DNA of 20,320 bases from a virus. This document shows positions 14,226 through 20,103 of the stretch, piece by piece (the stretch's first letter is position 1; each line of letters begins with the position of its first letter). The DNA lies in IMG/VR virus record IMGVR_UViG_3300044633_000192, positions 1 through 20,320 of that record; one strand, given 5' to 3'. The notes under the pieces are model-generated. The model was not told the origin of the DNA, ran no database searches, and saw only the letters and a list, made by a program, of their open reading frames with translations. Both the position numbers and the translations under genes were made by a program.

Positions 14226-15392
14226 TTAGCGTATGGCATACCTGCCAAAGTTAGGTCTGCTGAGTTTGTTGTAGGTCGCATATCTGAGTGCATCAATGGC
14301 GTGATTGAATGCATCAATCGGTTTGTTGAGCAGGTTGCCGTTCTTGTCTTCTACCCATTTGTAGTTCTGAAGTTCCTTGATTAGGTTGCTGCTTCGTGGT
14401 GTTACGAATAGCTTGTGCCGCTTCAGTACGTCAATGCCCACTATAACGCTATCTGCGCCCTTCTGCGTGGGTTTCACGTTCCACCCCATACGATGCAACT
14501 CCTCGATGCTTTTGGGTTCAGCAGAGTCAGCAAATACCTCCGTGCGTCTGTCAAGCCCAAGAGAGTTCAATACGTTGCTGATGTCGGGGTTGGTCATACC
14601 CGTTCGGTAGATAAGCTCATCCACATACAGATTGTCTCCCGACTTGTAAACTGCCACAAGTGCCGTTGGGTCGTTGGTGTACCCGAAGTCCATCCCGTGA
14701 CATAAGAGCGTGGCATCCGTTGGTATCTCTCCTTGCCCGTATTGGAAGATGGTGGCTCTGCTCATCCCACGTTCTCCGAGTCCGTAGATTCTCCAATAGT
14801 CGCTATCGGTATCACGCAAGCGTTCTATTTCATTTCGGATGCTGCTATCAAGGAACGGGTTATCAAGGTAGGTGGTCTGATGGAAGTCGCAGTCATCACG
14901 GGTCACCACCTTATCATAAATCCAATGGAACGCATCCGAAGGGTTGTAGTCAAGGATTGCCCTGTCTTCAGTTCGCATAATAAGCTGCTGCCAATCCTCA
15001 AACGTCAGCTCGTTGGCTTCGTTAATGTACAGGAGGTTGCGCTTGCGCCCTCGTATTTTCTGCGGTTGGTCAAGGCTTATGAACTCCACAAGGTTGCCAT
15101 TCAGATAATACTCGTGGCTTGACCTGTTGTGGTAAGCCTCGTTGTACAGGTCGTTGGCACGAAGTATCTCAAAGAAGTCCCGCATCACCGAAGCACGAAG
15201 CGAAGGGAACGTCTTACGACATATCGTAATTGTCTTGTTGCTTTCTGTTGTGCTATAATAGAAAATCACCCATAGCAGGATGTTGTACGTCTTCCCACTA
15301 CGAGTACCGCCCTGCTCCACGACTATCTTCTTGTCGCTGCGCTTTAGGTGGTTATATACTTTATTGGTCTGAATCTTCTCCAAGCACTTCAA
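14226..15392 (-). CDS. terL: Terminase large subunit
   Basis: The 388-residue protein carries both halves of a packaging motor. Its ATPase half has a Walker A motif at about 28-37 (GGTRSGKTYN), an adenine-binding or Q-motif-like lead-in (KIVVEQ), and Walker B at about 120-126 (LLYINEA). Its nuclease half has the acidic triad of an RNase H fold: D235 in GMDFGYTNDPTALVA, D289 in EVFADSAEP, and D360 or D367 in DAFNHAIDALRYA. It translocates DNA into the prohead and cuts it. The size is slightly short for the Terminase_3/PBSX group, but no motif is missing. The start overlaps the small subunit by 32 bases. Confidence 0.96.
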   Translation of the reverse strand: MKCLEKIQTNKVYNHLKRSDKKIVVEQGGTRSGKTYNILLWVIFYYSTTESNKTITICRKTFPSLRASVMRDFFEILRANDLYNEAYHNRSSHEYYLNGNLVEFISLDQPQKIRGRKRNLLYINEANELTFEDWQQLIMRTEDRAILDYNPSDAFHWIYDKVVTRDDCDFHQTTYLDNPFLDSSIRNEIERLRDTDSDYWRIYGLGERGMSRATIFQYGQGEIPTDATLLCHGMDFGYTNDPTALVAVYKSGDNLYVDELIYRTGMTNPDISNVLNSLGLDRRTEVFADSAEPKSIEELHRMGWNVKPTQKGADSVIVGIDVLKRHKLFVTPRSSNLIKELQNYKWVEDKNGNLLNKPIDAFNHAIDALRYATYNKLSRPNFGRYAIR

Positions 15393-15708
15393 TTTGAAAT
15401 AGCTTGCCCGAAGATACGTCTACCTCTTGGCGTTCCACGTATCCACGCTTCTTGCCTTTGGTCTTTAGAAAAAAGATAGTAGCGGTGGAGTTGCCCTCCT
15501 TTATCTGCTTGTGCAGTTGGCTCTCTGCGAAGTCAATCGCTACGTCTGATAGTTCTTCGACTGCTGCTTTGTATTCTTTGTCCTCTTGCATCCATCGGTA
15601 ATGCGTTTGCCTTGACAGGTCAACGCTTTTGCAAGCAGACGTAACTACCCCGAGAGATTTCTCCAACGCATCGAGCATTGCCTTTTTATGGATGTCACTA
15701 CTTGTCAT
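15361..15708 (-). CDS. terS: Terminase small subunit (putative)
   Basis: The 115-residue protein has an N-terminal helix-turn-helix at about 21-41 (VVTSACKSVDLSRQTHYRWM), then helices with AVEELSDVAIDFAESQLHKQ and FFLKTKGKKRGYVERQEVDV. This is the typical small terminase arrangement: DNA recognition followed by oligomerisation and a tail that contacts the large subunit. It precedes terL with a 32-base overlap. It also overlaps the end of the dioxygenase gene by 11 bases, so packaging genes are translated together with the modification genes. If phage DNA is modified, this protein must recognise modified pac or cos sites, which is inference. Confidence 0.85.
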   Translation of the reverse strand: MTSSDIHKKAMLDALEKSLGVVTSACKSVDLSRQTHYRWMQEDKEYKAAVEELSDVAIDFAESQLHKQIKEGNSTATIFFLKTKGKKRGYVERQEVDVSSGKLFQIEVLGEDSDQ

Positions 15709-16594
15709 TCTTCTCTGCTGATTTAAAAAATTCTTTATCCGAATATGACTTCAGTTCTTCTTGTCTTTTTTTCAAAGAATCCATATGAACAGGGTCTAAT
15801 CTTTTTTTCTCTCGTTCTGTTTTTACTTTGCGGATTCGCTTTATCTCACCATCCAAAGGTTCGCACTTCCACATTTGCTCAAGGGAATAGTAAACAACAG
15901 AATACCTGTACGATGAATCGTTTTTGTATTGTATGTCCGATACCCCGTGAAGAATATCTTGTCCATTAAAAATTGTTAAGGTGTTGTCCGCAACCTCAAG
16001 AGCAATGTCTAATTCGGGAATTACAAGGTGACCACCAATGATGTCGCTTTTGAATACAACCATATTTGAAAGAACCCCTTTGAAGTTCCCTGCATCATAG
16101 TGGTATTTAAGCTGATTGTTTTTATTTACTATGCCACTTGTAAATGGGGATGCTCCTATTGTCCAATCACTCATCACTCGCTCCTTAACAGTTTCTGTGT
16201 GGTGTTCATATTGTTGTGGGAAGTACTCTTTGTAGTAGTCAACCAACTCACTTACGAAGTTTGTAATTATGTAATGTTGCTTAGGGTAGTTTTTAGCCAT
16301 TGCCGTAACGCTACAATAGTCGTGACGCATTGCAATTCTTGGGGAGTATCCGAATATATTGGATGTTGATTCAAGTCCTCTGCTTCTTTTGCCCGTTGAG
16401 TATTTCTGATTTTTAACTGCCCACCGCAAAGCAGAAGTGTCGGTTTCTAATTTTTTGTAAAAGACAACAGGTTCGTTGTTGACATAAATAATGCAGTCTT
16501 CTTTGATTGTTGTGCTTACATCAGAAAGCAAGGCAGTTCGTTTTCTGAACTTATCCTTGTCTATTGGCTTGCGCTCAAGGTCTATGCGTTTCAT
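15698..16594 (-). CDS. TET/JBP-family 2-oxoglutarate/Fe(II) dioxygenase (putative DNA base hydroxylase)
   Basis: The 298-residue protein has the double-stranded beta-helix signature of TET/JBP enzymes. Iron ligands are H165 and D167 in KYHYDAGN and H216 in ILHGV. R230 in YRYSVVYYS is placed to bind 2-oxoglutarate. The core also has SDIIGGHLVIPELDIALEVA (about 183-202). Upstream, IFGYSPRIAMRHDYCSVTAM (about 80-99) matches the region before the core in phage TET-like proteins. A lysine-rich tail follows residue 250. Family members oxidise the 5-methyl of 5-methylcytosine or thymine in DNA to hydroxymethyl. The four-base overlap with a TAGT-like glycosyltransferase gene strongly supports DNA modification over a metabolic dioxygenase. 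All expected catalytic residues are present, so the enzyme is probably active. Which base it oxidises cannot be read from the sequence. Confidence 0.85.
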   Translation of the reverse strand: MKRIDLERKPIDKDKFRKRTALLSDVSTTIKEDCIIYVNNEPVVFYKKLETDTSALRWAVKNQKYSTGKRSRGLESTSNIFGYSPRIAMRHDYCSVTAMAKNYPKQHYIITNFVSELVDYYKEYFPQQYEHHTETVKERVMSDWTIGASPFTSGIVNKNNQLKYHYDAGNFKGVLSNMVVFKSDIIGGHLVIPELDIALEVADNTLTIFNGQDILHGVSDIQYKNDSSYRYSVVYYSLEQMWKCEPLDGEIKRIRKVKTEREKKRLDPVHMDSLKKRQEELKSYSDKEFFKSAEKNDK

Positions 16595-17307
16595 AATTTC
16601 TTTGACTTGTATTGCTCACCTACAAGTTTAGGCTCATAGTACCATCTCTTGTCTTCCTTAACAATTACGTTAACAGTTGGGTCAATGGATTGAAATATCT
16701 TTATTTCATTTGCCGCCTGTTGCTTTCTGTCAAATGCTTGATGACCGCCTGCTCCGCTGCCAACGGGTTTACACTTTATAGCGTGGCGGGCGCAGAATAA
16801 AGTAAACTCATTATTGTTTACCATTTGGAAGAACTGATAAAAGTCTTCAAATGTATTTACATCCTCACGAGGCCTAAAGGAGGAGGTTCTAATTAAATAG
16901 CAAGTTTGCACTCTTTTGTTTATGTGCGTAAATAGCTTCTTGCTTTTTGCGTAAAACTCGAAGTCATAAGGGAACACAATGGCACCTAACGACTTATGTT
17001 TTGAAAAGTATGCAAGCATATCCTGCAAGTCTTCAGATATATTTCCAACTGCCGAAACGTCATCGTCTATCTTAAAAATAACATCATAGCCGTTTTGCTC
17101 TGCGTATTTTTTACCTTCCGACAATGCATAAGAAATACCTGCATTGCTTCTTTCAAGCATTAACTTGTTTGGGTAGTCATACTTTTCGTAGTCCTCCTTT
17201 TCTAATATAACGATTGTATCAATTCCCAATGAGTCAACAAAGGGTCGGCATACTTTCTGAAATACATCAGCACGTTGCTTACTTGGGATTATTGCTATTG
17301 CTTTCAA
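16591..17307 (-). CDS. TAGT-like GT-A glycosyltransferase (putative DNA hydroxymethyl-base glycosyltransferase)
   Basis: The 238-residue protein begins MKAIAIIPSKQRADVFQKVC, has SNAGISYALSEGKKYA (about 54-69) and a DDD metal/nucleotide-sugar motif at 81-83 in FKIDDDVSAVG. Later motifs are REDVNTFEDFYQFFQM (147-162), GSGAGGHQ (183-190) and DKRWYYEPKL near the C-terminus. This arrangement fits the TET-associated glycosyltransferase group, which adds sugar to the hydroxymethyl made by a partner TET/JBP enzyme. The next gene is exactly such an enzyme, joined by an ATGA overlap. No transmembrane helix or signal peptide is present, consistent with action on DNA in the cytoplasm. A GT2-like enzyme for another acceptor is the alternative. 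The sugar donor is unknown. Confidence 0.75.
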   Translation of the reverse strand: MKAIAIIPSKQRADVFQKVCRPFVDSLGIDTIVILEKEDYEKYDYPNKLMLERSNAGISYALSEGKKYAEQNGYDVIFKIDDDVSAVGNISEDLQDMLAYFSKHKSLGAIVFPYDFEFYAKSKKLFTHINKRVQTCYLIRTSSFRPREDVNTFEDFYQFFQMVNNNEFTLFCARHAIKCKPVGSGAGGHQAFDRKQQAANEIKIFQSIDPTVNVIVKEDKRWYYEPKLVGEQYKSKKL

Positions 17308-17863
17308 GTAAATAGATAATTACGTCTGTATTGCTTTCTAATTGATTTTCCTTTGCAAGTCCCTCAAGTTTTTCAAGGACATACTCATATTGTTGGTTGT
17401 CAAAGTACAGAGTTATCTGCTTGACCTTTGAGTTTATGTATCCATCAAGAGCCTCGTCAAGCATATCCTTGTCAAACTCAGGTTCTTTGTCATCGTCAAA
17501 ATATGCTGATGGAATATCTACACCCCAATTAAACAAATCCTTTACCTCCCATTCGTTGGCAAGCAAGTCCCAATCCCATTCACCAAAGCCTACGTTGTCT
17601 TTGATTATAAACTCATCCTTCTGTGCATCGGTCAGTTTGTCTGCTATGATAATCGGCACTTCCTTAAGCCCTGCTGCAATGCAAGCCTTTAGGCGCATAT
17701 TACCTCCAAGCACTACCATATTGCTATCTACTACGATTGGACGCAGCTCAAGCATCTGAGGGAACTCCTGTATAGACTTTACAAGCTTCTTGAACTTGTC
17801 ATCCTTTATGATTCTTGGATTCTTGGGGTTTGGTATGATTGTACCGATTGTTGCTCTTTGCAT
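17279..17863 (-). CDS. ParB-like N-terminal domain protein
   Basis: The 194-residue protein has a ParB/Srx-type domain at about 1-85: MQRATIGTIIPNPKNPRIIK, then RPIVVDSNMVVLGGNMRLKA with the GGNxR box at 53-57 and ACIAAGLKEVPIII. A segment FGEWDWDLLANEW (93-105) follows, which I know from ParB-type domains fused to DNA methylases. Here the methylase domain is absent and an acidic region with a short C-terminal helix takes its place. ParB-superfamily domains occur beside base-modification genes in phages, so it may target or regulate the modification enzymes. It is not a plasmid-partition ParB, as no DNA-binding HTH or ParA partner is visible. It overlaps the glycosyltransferase start by 29 bases. 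Confidence 0.78.
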   Translation of the reverse strand: MQRATIGTIIPNPKNPRIIKDDKFKKLVKSIQEFPQMLELRPIVVDSNMVVLGGNMRLKACIAAGLKEVPIIIADKLTDAQKDEFIIKDNVGFGEWDWDLLANEWEVKDLFNWGVDIPSAYFDDDKEPEFDKDMLDEALDGYINSKVKQITLYFDNQQYEYVLEKLEGLAKENQLESNTDVIIYLLESNSNNPK

Positions 17864-17865
17864 AA

Positions 17866-18144
17866 CTAAATAACTCTTTTTGATAAATGGTGGTTGTGAA
17901 CTTCGTAAAGGTAGTCCTTCTTTAGTTTAGTTCCGAAGTCAGCCTCGTGGTGGCAAGACCTGCATAATGCCATCAGGTTTTCTATGATATCAGCAATTTT
18001 GCTTCCACCCATTCCTCTTGGTTCTATGTGGTGGATGTCTACGGCTTTGCCTTGACATACCTCGCAAGGTATAAAGTCAGTTGTGGAGTAGCCCATCCCT
18101 TTGAGATAGACCTTTGTGTGGTTCTTCACCTTTGGTAAATCCAA
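17866..18144 (-). CDS. HNH endonuclease
   Basis: The 92-residue protein has a complete small HNH fold. Zinc-type cysteines are C27 and C30 (CEVC), the first catalytic histidines lie in DIHHIEPRGMGG (36-47), Asn56 is in ENLMAL, and the last half-site is CRSCHHEAD (61-69). HNH proteins near terminase genes often assist packaging or cut concatemers. Free-standing HNH homing-type nucleases also occur. It overlaps the methyltransferase end by 19 bases and precedes the ParB-like gene by two. Distance to terS (about 2.2 kb) is larger than usual because the dioxygenase, glycosyltransferase and ParB genes lie between. Confidence 0.88.
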   Translation of the reverse strand: MDLPKVKNHTKVYLKGMGYSTTDFIPCEVCQGKAVDIHHIEPRGMGGSKIADIIENLMALCRSCHHEADFGTKLKKDYLYEVHNHHLSKRVI

Positions 18145-18653
18145 CAGTCATCAATGAACGTAGCTCGGGGTAGCAGTTCATCTACCGCTTGGATTACTCC
18201 CTTCCAATGTTCGTGGTAATCGTCTCCTGCTATGTAGCCTCCCTTCTTGACTTTAGGTAGCCATAGCTTGATATCCTCCTTTACCGCTTCATAGGTATGG
18301 GTGAGGTCTATGAATACCACGTCTAACGATTCCTTGAGAAACATTTTTGCTGCTACTTTGGATGTTCCTTTGATTACATTGTACTTGCGCTCACCCATAT
18401 TCTCTAAGAACAGGTCGTATATGTCTACCTCCGTTGCGAGCTTGTGGGTGGTGGTGAGTTCGTTAGGTGAGCCCTTCCAAGTGTCAATGATTGTGATGTT
18501 TTGATGTGTTGCTTTGTCGCATAGGTAAGCCGATGACTTACCGAGCCACGCCCCCAACTCTACGAACGTGCCGTCTTCGGGCATATTGGCAAGTAGGTAG
18601 TCGTATGCTGCTTGGTGGTTGAACCACCCGTCTATGTCTTTTGATGCTTTCAT
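18126..18653 (-). CDS. Class I SAM-dependent methyltransferase (small-molecule or sugar type)
   Basis: From the ATG at 18653 the protein has 175 residues. I prefer this start over the upstream ATG at 18674 because it forms an ATGA junction with the previous gene. Motif I is FVELGAWLGKSSAYL, where the glycine loop binds SAM. The acidic residue of motif II is in ITIIDTWKGSPNEL. VVFIDLTHTYEAVKEDIKLW and KKGGYIAGDDYHEHW follow, as in the Methyltransf_24/CmcI-like group. The DNA-methyltransferase signatures PCQ and DPPY are absent, so it is unlikely to methylate bases directly. It probably methylates a hydroxyl or other group on a small molecule or sugar. Capping a DNA-linked or surface glycan is an inference from its glycosyltransferase neighbours. 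Confidence 0.78.
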   Translation of the reverse strand: MKASKDIDGWFNHQAAYDYLLANMPEDGTFVELGAWLGKSSAYLCDKATHQNITIIDTWKGSPNELTTTHKLATEVDIYDLFLENMGERKYNVIKGTSKVAAKMFLKESLDVVFIDLTHTYEAVKEDIKLWLPKVKKGGYIAGDDYHEHWKGVIQAVDELLPRATFIDDCWIYQR

Positions 18654-19177
18654 TTTAGGGCGTTGTAATAACAAAGGTACTGCTCTACGCAGATAAGTGT
18701 TCCTTGTTCGGATGCTGCTTGAGCAAAGGTGCCGTCTGCCTCGTAGGTCATTTCAAAGCGTAGGTTGGGCAGCTCGTATGGCTTGAACATATAGCAGGCG
18801 GTATCTATGTTGCCGACTCTTGGTTGGTCGGTAGGGCGTAGCCTACCTATTTGCCCCCACGTTACGATAGAACAGTCCAAAGCATTTAGGTTGTTCCACT
18901 CCTCAAGGAACTTTGGGTGCAGCACATTGTCATCATCAAGGTAGTAAACCCAATCCTCTTTTGTAAAAGAGTCAGAATACAATTCAAGGAACTCATTGCG
19001 TAGGGGGTTGCCCATATCCCCCGTGCGTGTGGAGTAGTGTGTGATTGATGCGCTTGTTGCTCCCTTGTAGTTGGTAGAGGCATCCATCATCACAACCCAC
19101 GTTGCGTACGCAGGGATATGTTGTTTTAGCCTAACGAGGTTATGAGGGCGTGAGCAGGGCGTGACTATGTAAAGCAT
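18650..19177 (-). CDS. GT-A-fold glycosyltransferase
   Basis: The 175-residue protein begins MLYIVTPCSRPHNLVRLKQH and has the metal-binding motif DDDN at 81-84 in WVYYLDDDNVLHPKFLEEW, then RVGNIDTACYMFKPYELP (about 120-137) as the acceptor-side pattern of family-2-like enzymes. It is short compared with full GT2 proteins but has the complete nucleotide-sugar site. No membrane helix or signal peptide is seen. It overlaps its neighbours by 13 and 4 bases. It may act on the modified base, on a phage surface component or on a host glycan. The sequence does not decide between these. Confidence 0.8.
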   Translation of the reverse strand: MLYIVTPCSRPHNLVRLKQHIPAYATWVVMMDASTNYKGATSASITHYSTRTGDMGNPLRNEFLELYSDSFTKEDWVYYLDDDNVLHPKFLEEWNNLNALDCSIVTWGQIGRLRPTDQPRVGNIDTACYMFKPYELPNLRFEMTYEADGTFAQAASEQGTLICVEQYLCYYNALK

Positions 19178-20103
19178 CGCAGTTCGTTTATTTTATCCAT
19201 CGTGAAATCTTGCACATACTCGTATAACGATTCTGTTATATCAGCCACTTGATTAGGGTTTTCACTTAGCCTCTTGATTGCTCCTGCCCATTCGCTTGGG
19301 TGCTTGATGGCAATGCAGTTCTCTTTGGTGATATAAGGTGAATAGGGTTGTGTGTTGCTCACTATCAAAGCGCATTTGCTAAAACCTGCCTCCAACATCT
19401 TTAGGTGCGACTTGCACTTGGCAAACTCGGATGTCGTAAGCGGTACGAGGCTCACGTCAAAGAACTCGTAGAGTTTGTGGTAGTGTGTTGGTGGCATAGT
19501 AGGTAGCCTATGGCTTGCCTTCATAATATCGGGATAGCCATCTACCTCTGCGACATAGCCTTGATAGCCCTCAAGGTTGATTGTGGACTCTCTTACGTCT
19601 GCTGCGTGGTGGTTGCCTCCGATATACCCGAAGCGTACTTCTTCGCTTTGCTCTCTCTCTACTTGCCACGTGGGTACGCTGATGGCGTTTGGTATGATTC
19701 GGATGTTGCTATTGTACTTCTTGACCTTTGAGGCAAGGTGCTTATTGGTCACCCATACCTCATCCGCTGCTTTCATAGAGCGGATAATCTTCATCTTCAT
19801 TTGGTCTGAATATACCCCAAGCAAAGGATGGGTAGGAGGCAGCACCCACCAATCATCGTTATCAACTATTAGCTTGATGCCTTCCTTACGGCAGAGCTTT
19901 ACAAAGTCATCAAACGGCTCAACAGGAAATATCCTTGAGGTGAAGATGTGCGTTACCTTCGGCCATATCTCAGGGTCAATGTCGGTAATCTTCTCAATAA
20001 AAAAGACATCTACTCCCTTGTGGCATATCAAGGGGGCAAATGTCCTGTGGTGTGATACACCCGAGTTCTGCTTGTGGAACGCAAGTACAAAGGGTCTAAT
20101 CAT
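19165..20103 (-). CDS. GT4-like (GT-B fold) glycosyltransferase
   Basis: The 312-residue protein has a GT-B arrangement. N-terminal motifs include HKQNSGVSHHRTFAPL (10-25) and IVDNDDWWVLPP (79-90). The middle reads AADEVWVTNKHLASKV and IRIIPNAISV. The C-terminal half has VRFGYIGGNHH (156-166) and the donor-binding segment KSHLKMLEAGFSKCALIVSN (231-250), including the usual E in the LEAG turn. It transfers a sugar from an activated donor. The acceptor is unknown. Position at the head of the cassette and ATGA coupling to the upstream gene suggest co-expression with the modification genes. The length is slightly short for the family. Confidence 0.82.
   Translation of the reverse strand: MIRPFVLAFHKQNSGVSHHRTFAPLICHKGVDVFFIEKITDIDPEIWPKVTHIFTSRIFPVEPFDDFVKLCRKEGIKLIVDNDDWWVLPPTHPLLGVYSDQMKMKIIRSMKAADEVWVTNKHLASKVKKYNSNIRIIPNAISVPTWQVEREQSEEVRFGYIGGNHHAADVRESTINLEGYQGYVAEVDGYPDIMKASHRLPTMPPTHYHKLYEFFDVSLVPLTTSEFAKCKSHLKMLEAGFSKCALIVSNTQPYSPYITKENCIAIKHPSEWAGAIKRLSENPNQVADITESLYEYVQDFTMDKINELRCFT

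Follow-up and report, generated by a model that had tools for sequence, protein, structure and literature searches.

In kinetoplastids, base J is made in two steps, hydroxylation of thymidine by JBP1/JBP2 and then transfer of glucose by the base-J-associated glucosyltransferase, according to passages of two reports (PMC10276184, PMC6449724). In phages T2 and T6, the enzyme named TAGT, modelled as a GT-A glycosyltransferase, attaches a second glucose to a cytosine that already bears an alpha-glucosyl group, and solitary TAGT homologues, which occur without an alpha- or beta-glucosyltransferase in 288 of 753 phage genomes, are regarded as potentially novel transferases in the consulted sections of one study (PMC13216743). 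Among actinophages, the ParB-like, TET-like, aGPT-Pplase2, 5-hydroxymethyluracil (5hmU) kinase and hypothetical genes of Tonitrus are presented, in an excerpt of PMC11955845, as a predicted and possible thymidine hypermodification system. Here we describe a candidate module related to these systems in a virus record of 20,320 bases (IMGVR_UViG_3300044633_000192; hereafter the window, meaning that whole stretch), in which the gene of a predicted TET/JBP-family 2-oxoglutarate/Fe(II) dioxygenase (TET, 15698-16594) and that of a TAGT-like glycosyltransferase (16591-17307) lie together next to the terminase genes, all genes of the module being on the minus strand. Phage TET/JBP modules have reportedly been described before, in work attributed to Iyer in 2013 and to Burke in 2021; Pfam already names PF20691 'TET-Associated Glycosyltransferase', and relatives of the module occur in cultured phages. 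Modules of TET and TAGT being known, what is added here is the exchange slot that holds the glycosyltransferase gene and the proposal that thymine is the target base.

The phage TET/JBP and TAGT modules to be compared with the window are genes 1-6 of Mycobacterium phage Acadian and gp26-gp28 of Nonlabens phage P12024L, where TET likewise stands beside a GT-A-family glycosyltransferase (TAGT at 131 and 76 bits, respectively). In Acadian, as in the window, ParB precedes TET and the terminase genes come after. However, the glycosyltransferase follows TET in both phages, whereas that of the window precedes TET, in the exchange slot, and scores just below the TAGT cut-off. Furthermore, the TET of Acadian is 33% identical to that of the window, and P12024L differs in having an N4/N6-type methyltransferase gene after the pair and in belonging to another deep TET group. 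The predicted thymine systems of the actinophages Tonitrus, MakoManhole, Prince and MO526 belong to the same deep TET group as the window family (100/100, with the MED4-117 family included), and Prince, MakoManhole and Tonitrus share with the window a ParB before TET; yet these four carry a kinase/transferase pair where the window has a glycosyltransferase. With base J, as outlined in the passages cited, the window would have in common the two-step logic of a TET/JBP-family oxygenase followed by a sugar, but that pathway is eukaryotic, while the present system is that of a phage and its substrate a predicted one. The T2/T6 TAGT and the window enzyme share the GT-A fold, and the latter matches the PHROG of that name (PHROG 842, beta-glucosyl-HMC-alpha-glucosyltransferase, E 1.6e-6); the former is a second-glucose enzyme, whereas the latter would be a solitary TAGT-like enzyme working with TET.

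The dioxygenase and its partner glycosyltransferase

By every test run, on sequence as well as on the predicted structure, the 298-residue product of 15698-16594 is assigned to the TET/JBP family. It matches Pfam Tet_JBP (PF12851) at 46 bits (E 4.2e-12), above the cut-off of 34.9, and the whole 20,320-base record holds this one TET match and no second. The key residues listed by the first-pass annotation are all in place: H165, D167 and H216 form the HxD...H triad, R230 is the 2-oxoglutarate-type arginine, and all four recur unchanged in each of the 33 viral TETs aligned; following what is established for this family, we take them to bind Fe(II) and 2-oxoglutarate. The model computed from a 29-sequence alignment (mean predicted local distance difference test score, pLDDT, 88.3) has the TET-type double-stranded beta-helix fold. 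Indeed, the first 26 rows of a Foldseek search with this model are CcTet, CMD1, NgTet1 and TET2, and after structural re-ranking rows 1-16 are all TET-family enzymes, at Z 15.5-18.0 (TET2, 7ne6: Z 18.0, root-mean-square deviation 3.8, 252 aligned residues; CMD1: Z 17.4; NgTet1: Z 17.2). Sequence searches of the PDB reached CMD1 at no better than E 0.42 with phmmer and E 0.043 with a profile, and NCBIfam returned nothing at E 0.01 for either TET or the slot glycosyltransferase.

The 238-residue product of 16591-17307, which has a TTG start, scores 26.1 bits (E 9.5e-6) against PF20691, 1.4 short of the cut-off of 27.5, and is for that reason called TAGT-like. The motifs read by the first-pass annotation were all recovered, namely DDD at residues 81-83, GSGAGGHQ at 183 and WYYEPKL at 222, and D82 is invariant across the 24 aligned slot glycosyltransferases. 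Modelled from 24 sequences (pLDDT 89.6), the protein combines an acidic DxD-type motif with a GT-A fold and superimposes on GalNAc-T2 (Z 16.6, root-mean-square deviation 3.2, 219 aligned residues) and on SpsA (Z 14.9). When representatives of five other slot glycosyltransferase types were scanned, four passed the TAGT cut-off (39.3, 46, 60.3 and 42.8 bits), and the type found in locus L003 had no Pfam match. For the window enzyme, a tblastn search of 'phages' gave no match at E 0.001, and the best PDB sequence matches were an aminotransferase (phmmer, E 0.98) and a protease (profile search, E 0.12).

Both reading frames lie on the minus strand where they had first been drawn and overlap by 4 bases, the ATGA junction of the first-pass annotation. 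The position directly before the terminase genes holds as well: the gene of the terminase small subunit (TerS, 15361-15708; PHROG 309, E 4.3e-10; PHROG 4044, E 2.1e-8) overlaps that of TET by 11 bases and is followed by that of the large subunit (TerL, 14226-15392; PF04466, 82 bits).

A single-gene exchange slot between ParB and TET

The comparison covered 109 distinct loci, a first set of 80 and 29 new ones from a search in which at least 554 stretches encode a relative, glycosyltransferase types being defined by BLAST clustering and Pfam being run on representatives. This comparison establishes the position between ParB and TET as a single-gene exchange slot. The slot is occupied by a glycosyltransferase-type gene in 92 of the 109 loci (one of which, L059, has two additional slot genes), by an unclassified gene of about 300 codons, the L026 type, in three, by a Glyco_trans_1_2-like gene scoring below the cut-off in one (L167), by a lone P-loop kinase-like gene in two, and by a set made of an amino-acid:DNA-transferase (ADDT), an FAD oxidoreductase and a kinase-like gene in three; it is absent in seven and unreadable in one (L040), whose contig begins within TET. 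A first reading by eye of the L026 type as GT-B-like was dropped, neither this protein nor its relative in L153 having a Pfam or PHROG match. Behind TET, five of the seven slot-less loci have an ADDT and a kinase-like gene together with GATase-like or GNAT genes, and the other two a gene that resembles the L026 type by eye (Pfam on representatives only). The borders of the slot are steady: ParB (in the window 17279-17863, a ParB-N domain protein with PF02195 at 30 bits, above the cut-off of 26.3) lies upstream in 102 of the 109 loci, the remaining seven being reported without ParB, and a terminase gene begins within 60 bases after TET in 89, farther in 15, with none recognised on the contig in five.

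The exchange is seen in pairs of close relatives. The TETs of L003 and L014 are 99% and 96% identical to that of the window. Aligned DNA is about 92% identical as far as a point inside the 3' end of ParB, 9 bases short of the slot gene's start; the alignment resumes at the TET start codon at 94-95%, with nothing aligning between. The two glycosyltransferase types are linked at E 1e-5 and not at 1e-6; they are distant relatives at best. Likewise, the TET of L026 is 97% identical to that of L017, which has another glycosyltransferase, and 95% identical to that of L023, which has the window type. TETs that are 96-99% identical are thus found beside quite different slot genes. When a quick tree was built for 64 TETs, with stars on 25 of its 61 inner branches, the 14 slot types were seen to require at least 26 changes, the minimum being 13 and shuffled labels giving 42. 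No report of such an exchange turned up in the literature, in searches that were not aimed at it and with most subscription papers outside reach. The family offers near-isogenic natural swaps, in which a nearly identical TET accompanies different slot enzymes, and comparing them would reveal both the modified base and what each slot enzyme adds; if the proposed function is true, these phages alter the chemical coat of their DNA through the replacement of one gene.

Among the loci without a gene between ParB and TET, L066, L067, L072, L075 and L145 all have a kinase-like gene and an ADDT after TET, accompanied by a glutamine-amidotransferase-like protein in four and a GNAT acetyltransferase-like protein in three, a gene set for which a further base modification is possible.

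The target base and competing readings

Leaving the base unnamed, TET and the slot glycosyltransferase very likely constitute a DNA hypermodification module, and profiles, predicted folds, catalytic residues and conserved gene order argue, in agreement with the first-pass annotation, for a real and probably active module of a known kind. Modification would be post-replicative: with Fe(II), O2 and 2-oxoglutarate, the TET/JBP enzyme would hydroxylate a pyrimidine at its 5-methyl group once the base is part of phage DNA, the TAGT-like enzyme would then move a sugar from a nucleotide sugar onto the new hydroxyl, and the glycosylated DNA may be shielded from host nucleases. The uncharacterised base modification of the first-pass annotation is an inference. 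If the base is thymine, T would become 5hmU and finally a glycosylated 5hmU that would be the phage equivalent of base J, and we lean slightly towards this full scheme, which, if true, would place a base-J-like pathway in a virus. More tentative is the wider picture in which a large family of phages, probably those of Bacteroidota, possesses such an equivalent, one exchangeable slot gene deciding how thymine is adorned and related branches using kinases and amino-acid-type transferases.

Thymine is moderately favoured over 5-methylcytosine (5mC) as the target because of observations on the window and 109 contigs of its family, all of them fragments or of unknown completeness, and on cultured phages. 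The C5-cytosine methyltransferase profile PF00145 exceeds its cut-off in 2 of these 110 records, the window not being one of them (0/26 with one sub-threshold match, 0/50, 0/5 and 2/29), a scarcity that is weak evidence since completeness is not established for any record of the family. Thymidylate-synthase-type enzymes are the other known source of 5-hydroxymethyl-pyrimidines, a dUMP hydroxymethylase of this family being the mark of M6/ViI-type thymidine hypermodification via 5hmdUMP, and their profile, PF00303, is found in none of 50 family records; in a set of 18 records that includes 12 cultured phages it likewise has no match above the cut-off and one below it, in P12024L. P-loop kinase-like genes occur in 10 of the 109 loci, eight of which also have ADDT-type transferases (Pfam on representatives), and in phages whose pathways have been worked out such enzymes reportedly act on 5hmU, according to work attributed to Lee (2018, 2022). 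Nine cultured actinophages of the same deep TET group were looked at, and in four of them TET is found close to the terminase with a P-loop kinase and with either ADDT or aGPT-Pplase2. These are Prince (ParB, a TET whose annotation reads 'thymidine hydroxylase', ADDT, P-loop kinase, terminase), the similar MakoManhole and Tonitrus (aGPT-Pplase2 by annotation, with further genes ahead of the terminase), and MO526 (TET, ADDT, FAD oxidoreductase, kinase, terminase), the only one of the nine in which no ParB was seen before TET. Tonitrus is the phage with the published thymidine prediction (PMC11955845).

Several facts weigh against thymine and keep 5mC in consideration. Two family members, L164 and L165, whose TET is 60% identical to that of the window, carry between TET and TerS a C5-methyltransferase-like gene (L164:2524-3120, PF00145 at 30.1 bits) whose 198-residue product is short for a C5-methyltransferase. 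A motif and homology scan of 1.13 Mb in 110 sequences added a single candidate, an open reading frame in the L048 record at 15.2 bits, below the cut-off. In the distant P12024L family, L109 has a relative of the L164/L165 protein (L109:1883-2536, 31.8 bits) together with a P-loop kinase-like gene with no match above cut-off and an ADDT-like frame recognised by eye, without Pfam or NCBIfam match; since it pairs the two kinds of genes, kinase/ADDT sets are perhaps not specific to thymine. Besides, the TETs associated with kinase and ADDT sit on branches of their own in the tree of the window family and are not interleaved with the glycosyltransferase types, and the Methyltransf_24 protein of the window, described below, also matches a PHROG labelled 'DNA methyltransferase'. 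Of the nine actinophages, the other five give no such hint of thymine or a partial one: Acadian (ParB, TET, TAGT, PIG-L deacetylase, TerS, TerL), Altadena (ParB, TET, glycosyltransferase and deacetylase, by annotation), Ottawa (ParB, TET, kinase, TerS, TerL), Nigel (ParB, TET, TerS, TerL, with nothing between TET and TerS) and Margaery (ParB, TET, one unclassified protein, terminase).

On these grounds, it is conceivable, though in our view rather unlikely, that the same module acts on 5mC supplied by a C5-methyltransferase, encoded elsewhere in the incomplete genome or by the host, and yields glycosylated 5-hydroxymethylcytosine. This product would be that of the described phage pathways combining C5-methyltransferase, TET and glycosyltransferase, and the window, at 20 kb, is a fragment; the genes of L164, L165 and L109 and the sub-threshold frame of L048 speak for it. 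Against it stand the two matches above cut-off in 110 records, the absence of PF00145 from all 12 cultured phages having a TET relative, and the loci L161 and L163, whose TETs are 98% identical to that of L164 with no such gene behind them and whose short contigs (7.4 and 8.1 kb) have no PF00145 match. Surveys elsewhere gave PF00145 in 1 of 19 records of the P12024L family and in 2 of 50 of the MED4-117 family (50 of 80).

Of two indicators of the base that were considered, one failed and the other was weakened. The residue three positions after the aspartate of the triad (D+3, N170 in the window) was considered as a marker of T versus 5mC substrates, being Asn in 109 of 109 family TETs, nine actinophages, MED4-117 and S-CBWM1, and Asp in P12024L, in L109, L113 and L114 (by eye) and, by alignment, in the 5mC enzyme CMD1. 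The rule failed: L113 has Asp, yet none of the 50 records covered for its family (50 of 80) has PF00145, and human TET2, a 5mC enzyme, has Asn at this position, so that N170 cannot discriminate. The kinase/ADDT partners as proof of thymine were weakened by L109, by the tree and by the L113 family, in which, without PF00145, an Asp-type TET is paired with ADDT and kinase.

Two other readings depart from the module altogether, the glycosylation of thymine or of 5mC being given up in both. The TAGT-like enzyme might serve a surface, capsid or other glycan with genes lying upstream, TET alone leaving 5-hydroxymethyl bases, which we consider improbable. Within 3.5 kb (16591-20103) the window does hold, besides the slot gene, two more genes of glycosyltransferase type and one resembling sugar methyltransferases: a possible accessory glycosyltransferase (19165-20103; PHROG 7162, E 2.1e-47; Glyco_trans_1_2 at 15.4 bits, below the cut-off of 25), a short GT2-like protein with a DDD motif, also possibly accessory (18650-19177; Glyco_tranf_2_3 at 16.4 bits, below 27), and a Methyltransf_24/TylF-like S-adenosylmethionine methyltransferase (18126-18674; PF13578, 72.3 bits; PHROG 2675, E 3.1e-24), perhaps an accessory for sugar O-methylation. 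GT-A folds are general, and the phage relatives of the third glycosyltransferase (best 15 of 139) belong to Escherichia, Pseudomonas, Citrobacter and Klebsiella phages or to unassigned Justusliebigvirus records. However, the slot gene alone is tied to TET by an overlap, a glycosyltransferase-type gene stands there in 92 of 109 loci, and the upstream glycosyltransferases and methyltransferase were not found in relatives whose sequence extends over 8 kb upstream of TET (e.g. L029, L037, L042, L048 and L057). Four of five slot glycosyltransferase representatives, moreover, pass the TAGT cut-off, and the T2/T6 TAGT is described as glycosylating DNA in the consulted sections of PMC13216743. Less probable still is a repair-type, AlkB/FTO-like demethylase that would clear methyl groups from the bases of phage DNA ahead of packaging. 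Such a role would suit the location beside the terminase genes, and FTO (Z 15.0) and then AlkB-type enzymes rank next after the TETs in the structural re-ranking (Z 13.3 to 15.0), the lowest TET rows lying within 1 of FTO and thus tied with it; but rows 1-16 are TET-family, PF12851 passes its cut-off, and regular glycosyltransferase-type or ADDT neighbours are not expected of a demethylase. Neither profile nor structure search placed the dioxygenase in a non-DNA family, the outcome by which the first-pass annotation could have been refuted.

Neighbouring genes, deep TET groups and distant relatives

Read along the minus strand, the genes of the window are ordered glycosyltransferase, short GT2-like protein, Methyltransf_24 protein, HNH nuclease (17866-18144; PF01844, 31.4 bits), ParB, TAGT-like glycosyltransferase, TET, TerS and TerL. 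A profile comparison gave no link between the short GT2-like protein and the slot glycosyltransferase, PF00145 has no match in the Methyltransf_24 protein, and the gene of the latter is mostly absent from the close relative L009. A Bacteroidota phage, called probable by the first-pass annotation, is a plausible identity: among the best 25 of 1283 records matching TerL, 24 come from Flavobacterium phages, with 39% identity, and the first is a faecal phage record, at 40%.

A careful TET tree, which carries long-branch warnings, sets the window family, the actinophages and the MED4-117 family apart, as one group with 100/100 support, from P12024L, the L113 family and S-CBWM1; a single clade of the window family and the actinophages is neither supported nor rejected (p-AU 0.374).

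In Acadian (L086:2438-3025, 42 bits) a PIG-L-type deacetylase, and in Altadena (L089:5472-6065) an annotated glucosaminyl deacetylase, follow TET and the glycosyltransferase, which suggests that the sugar may there be an N-acetylhexosamine that is deacetylated afterwards. Another large TET family comprises 358 stretches; represented by L113:7404-14287 and L114:7491-12420, it combines within one stretch TET (84.3 bits) with a GT4-like protein below the cut-off and an ADDT (55.7 bits), to which L113 adds a P-loop kinase (44.3 bits) and L114 a myo-inositol-1-phosphate synthase (71.2 bits); this family might put an inositol-type group on DNA. In the Synechococcus phage S-CBWM1 (L091, 3729-7139), a homologue of TET that bears the annotation 'SNF2 DNA repair protein' adjoins a TAGT (40.6 bits) and, by annotation, the nucleotide-sugar genes of a phosphoheptose isomerase and a glucose-1-phosphate thymidylyltransferase; used as a query, it matched its own genome only.

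Many phage records (NC_011044, NC_023701, NC_020857 and others; L094, L086 and L093) label the TET/JBP homologue 'queuine tRNA-ribosyltransferase', a label also carried by PHROG 6059 and given in one record as DpdA-like; on TET-like phage proteins, it looks like a widespread mis-annotation. The TET homologue of Nigel scores 26.5 bits against Tet_JBP, below the cut-off. Lastly, a contig of an Ignavibacteria metagenome-assembled genome (L117:1843-6207) encodes a ParB-like frame (by eye), a TAGT (64.9 bits), a TET with 47% identity and terminase-like frames (by eye); it may be a prophage or phage contig and hints at hosts in the Ignavibacteria group.

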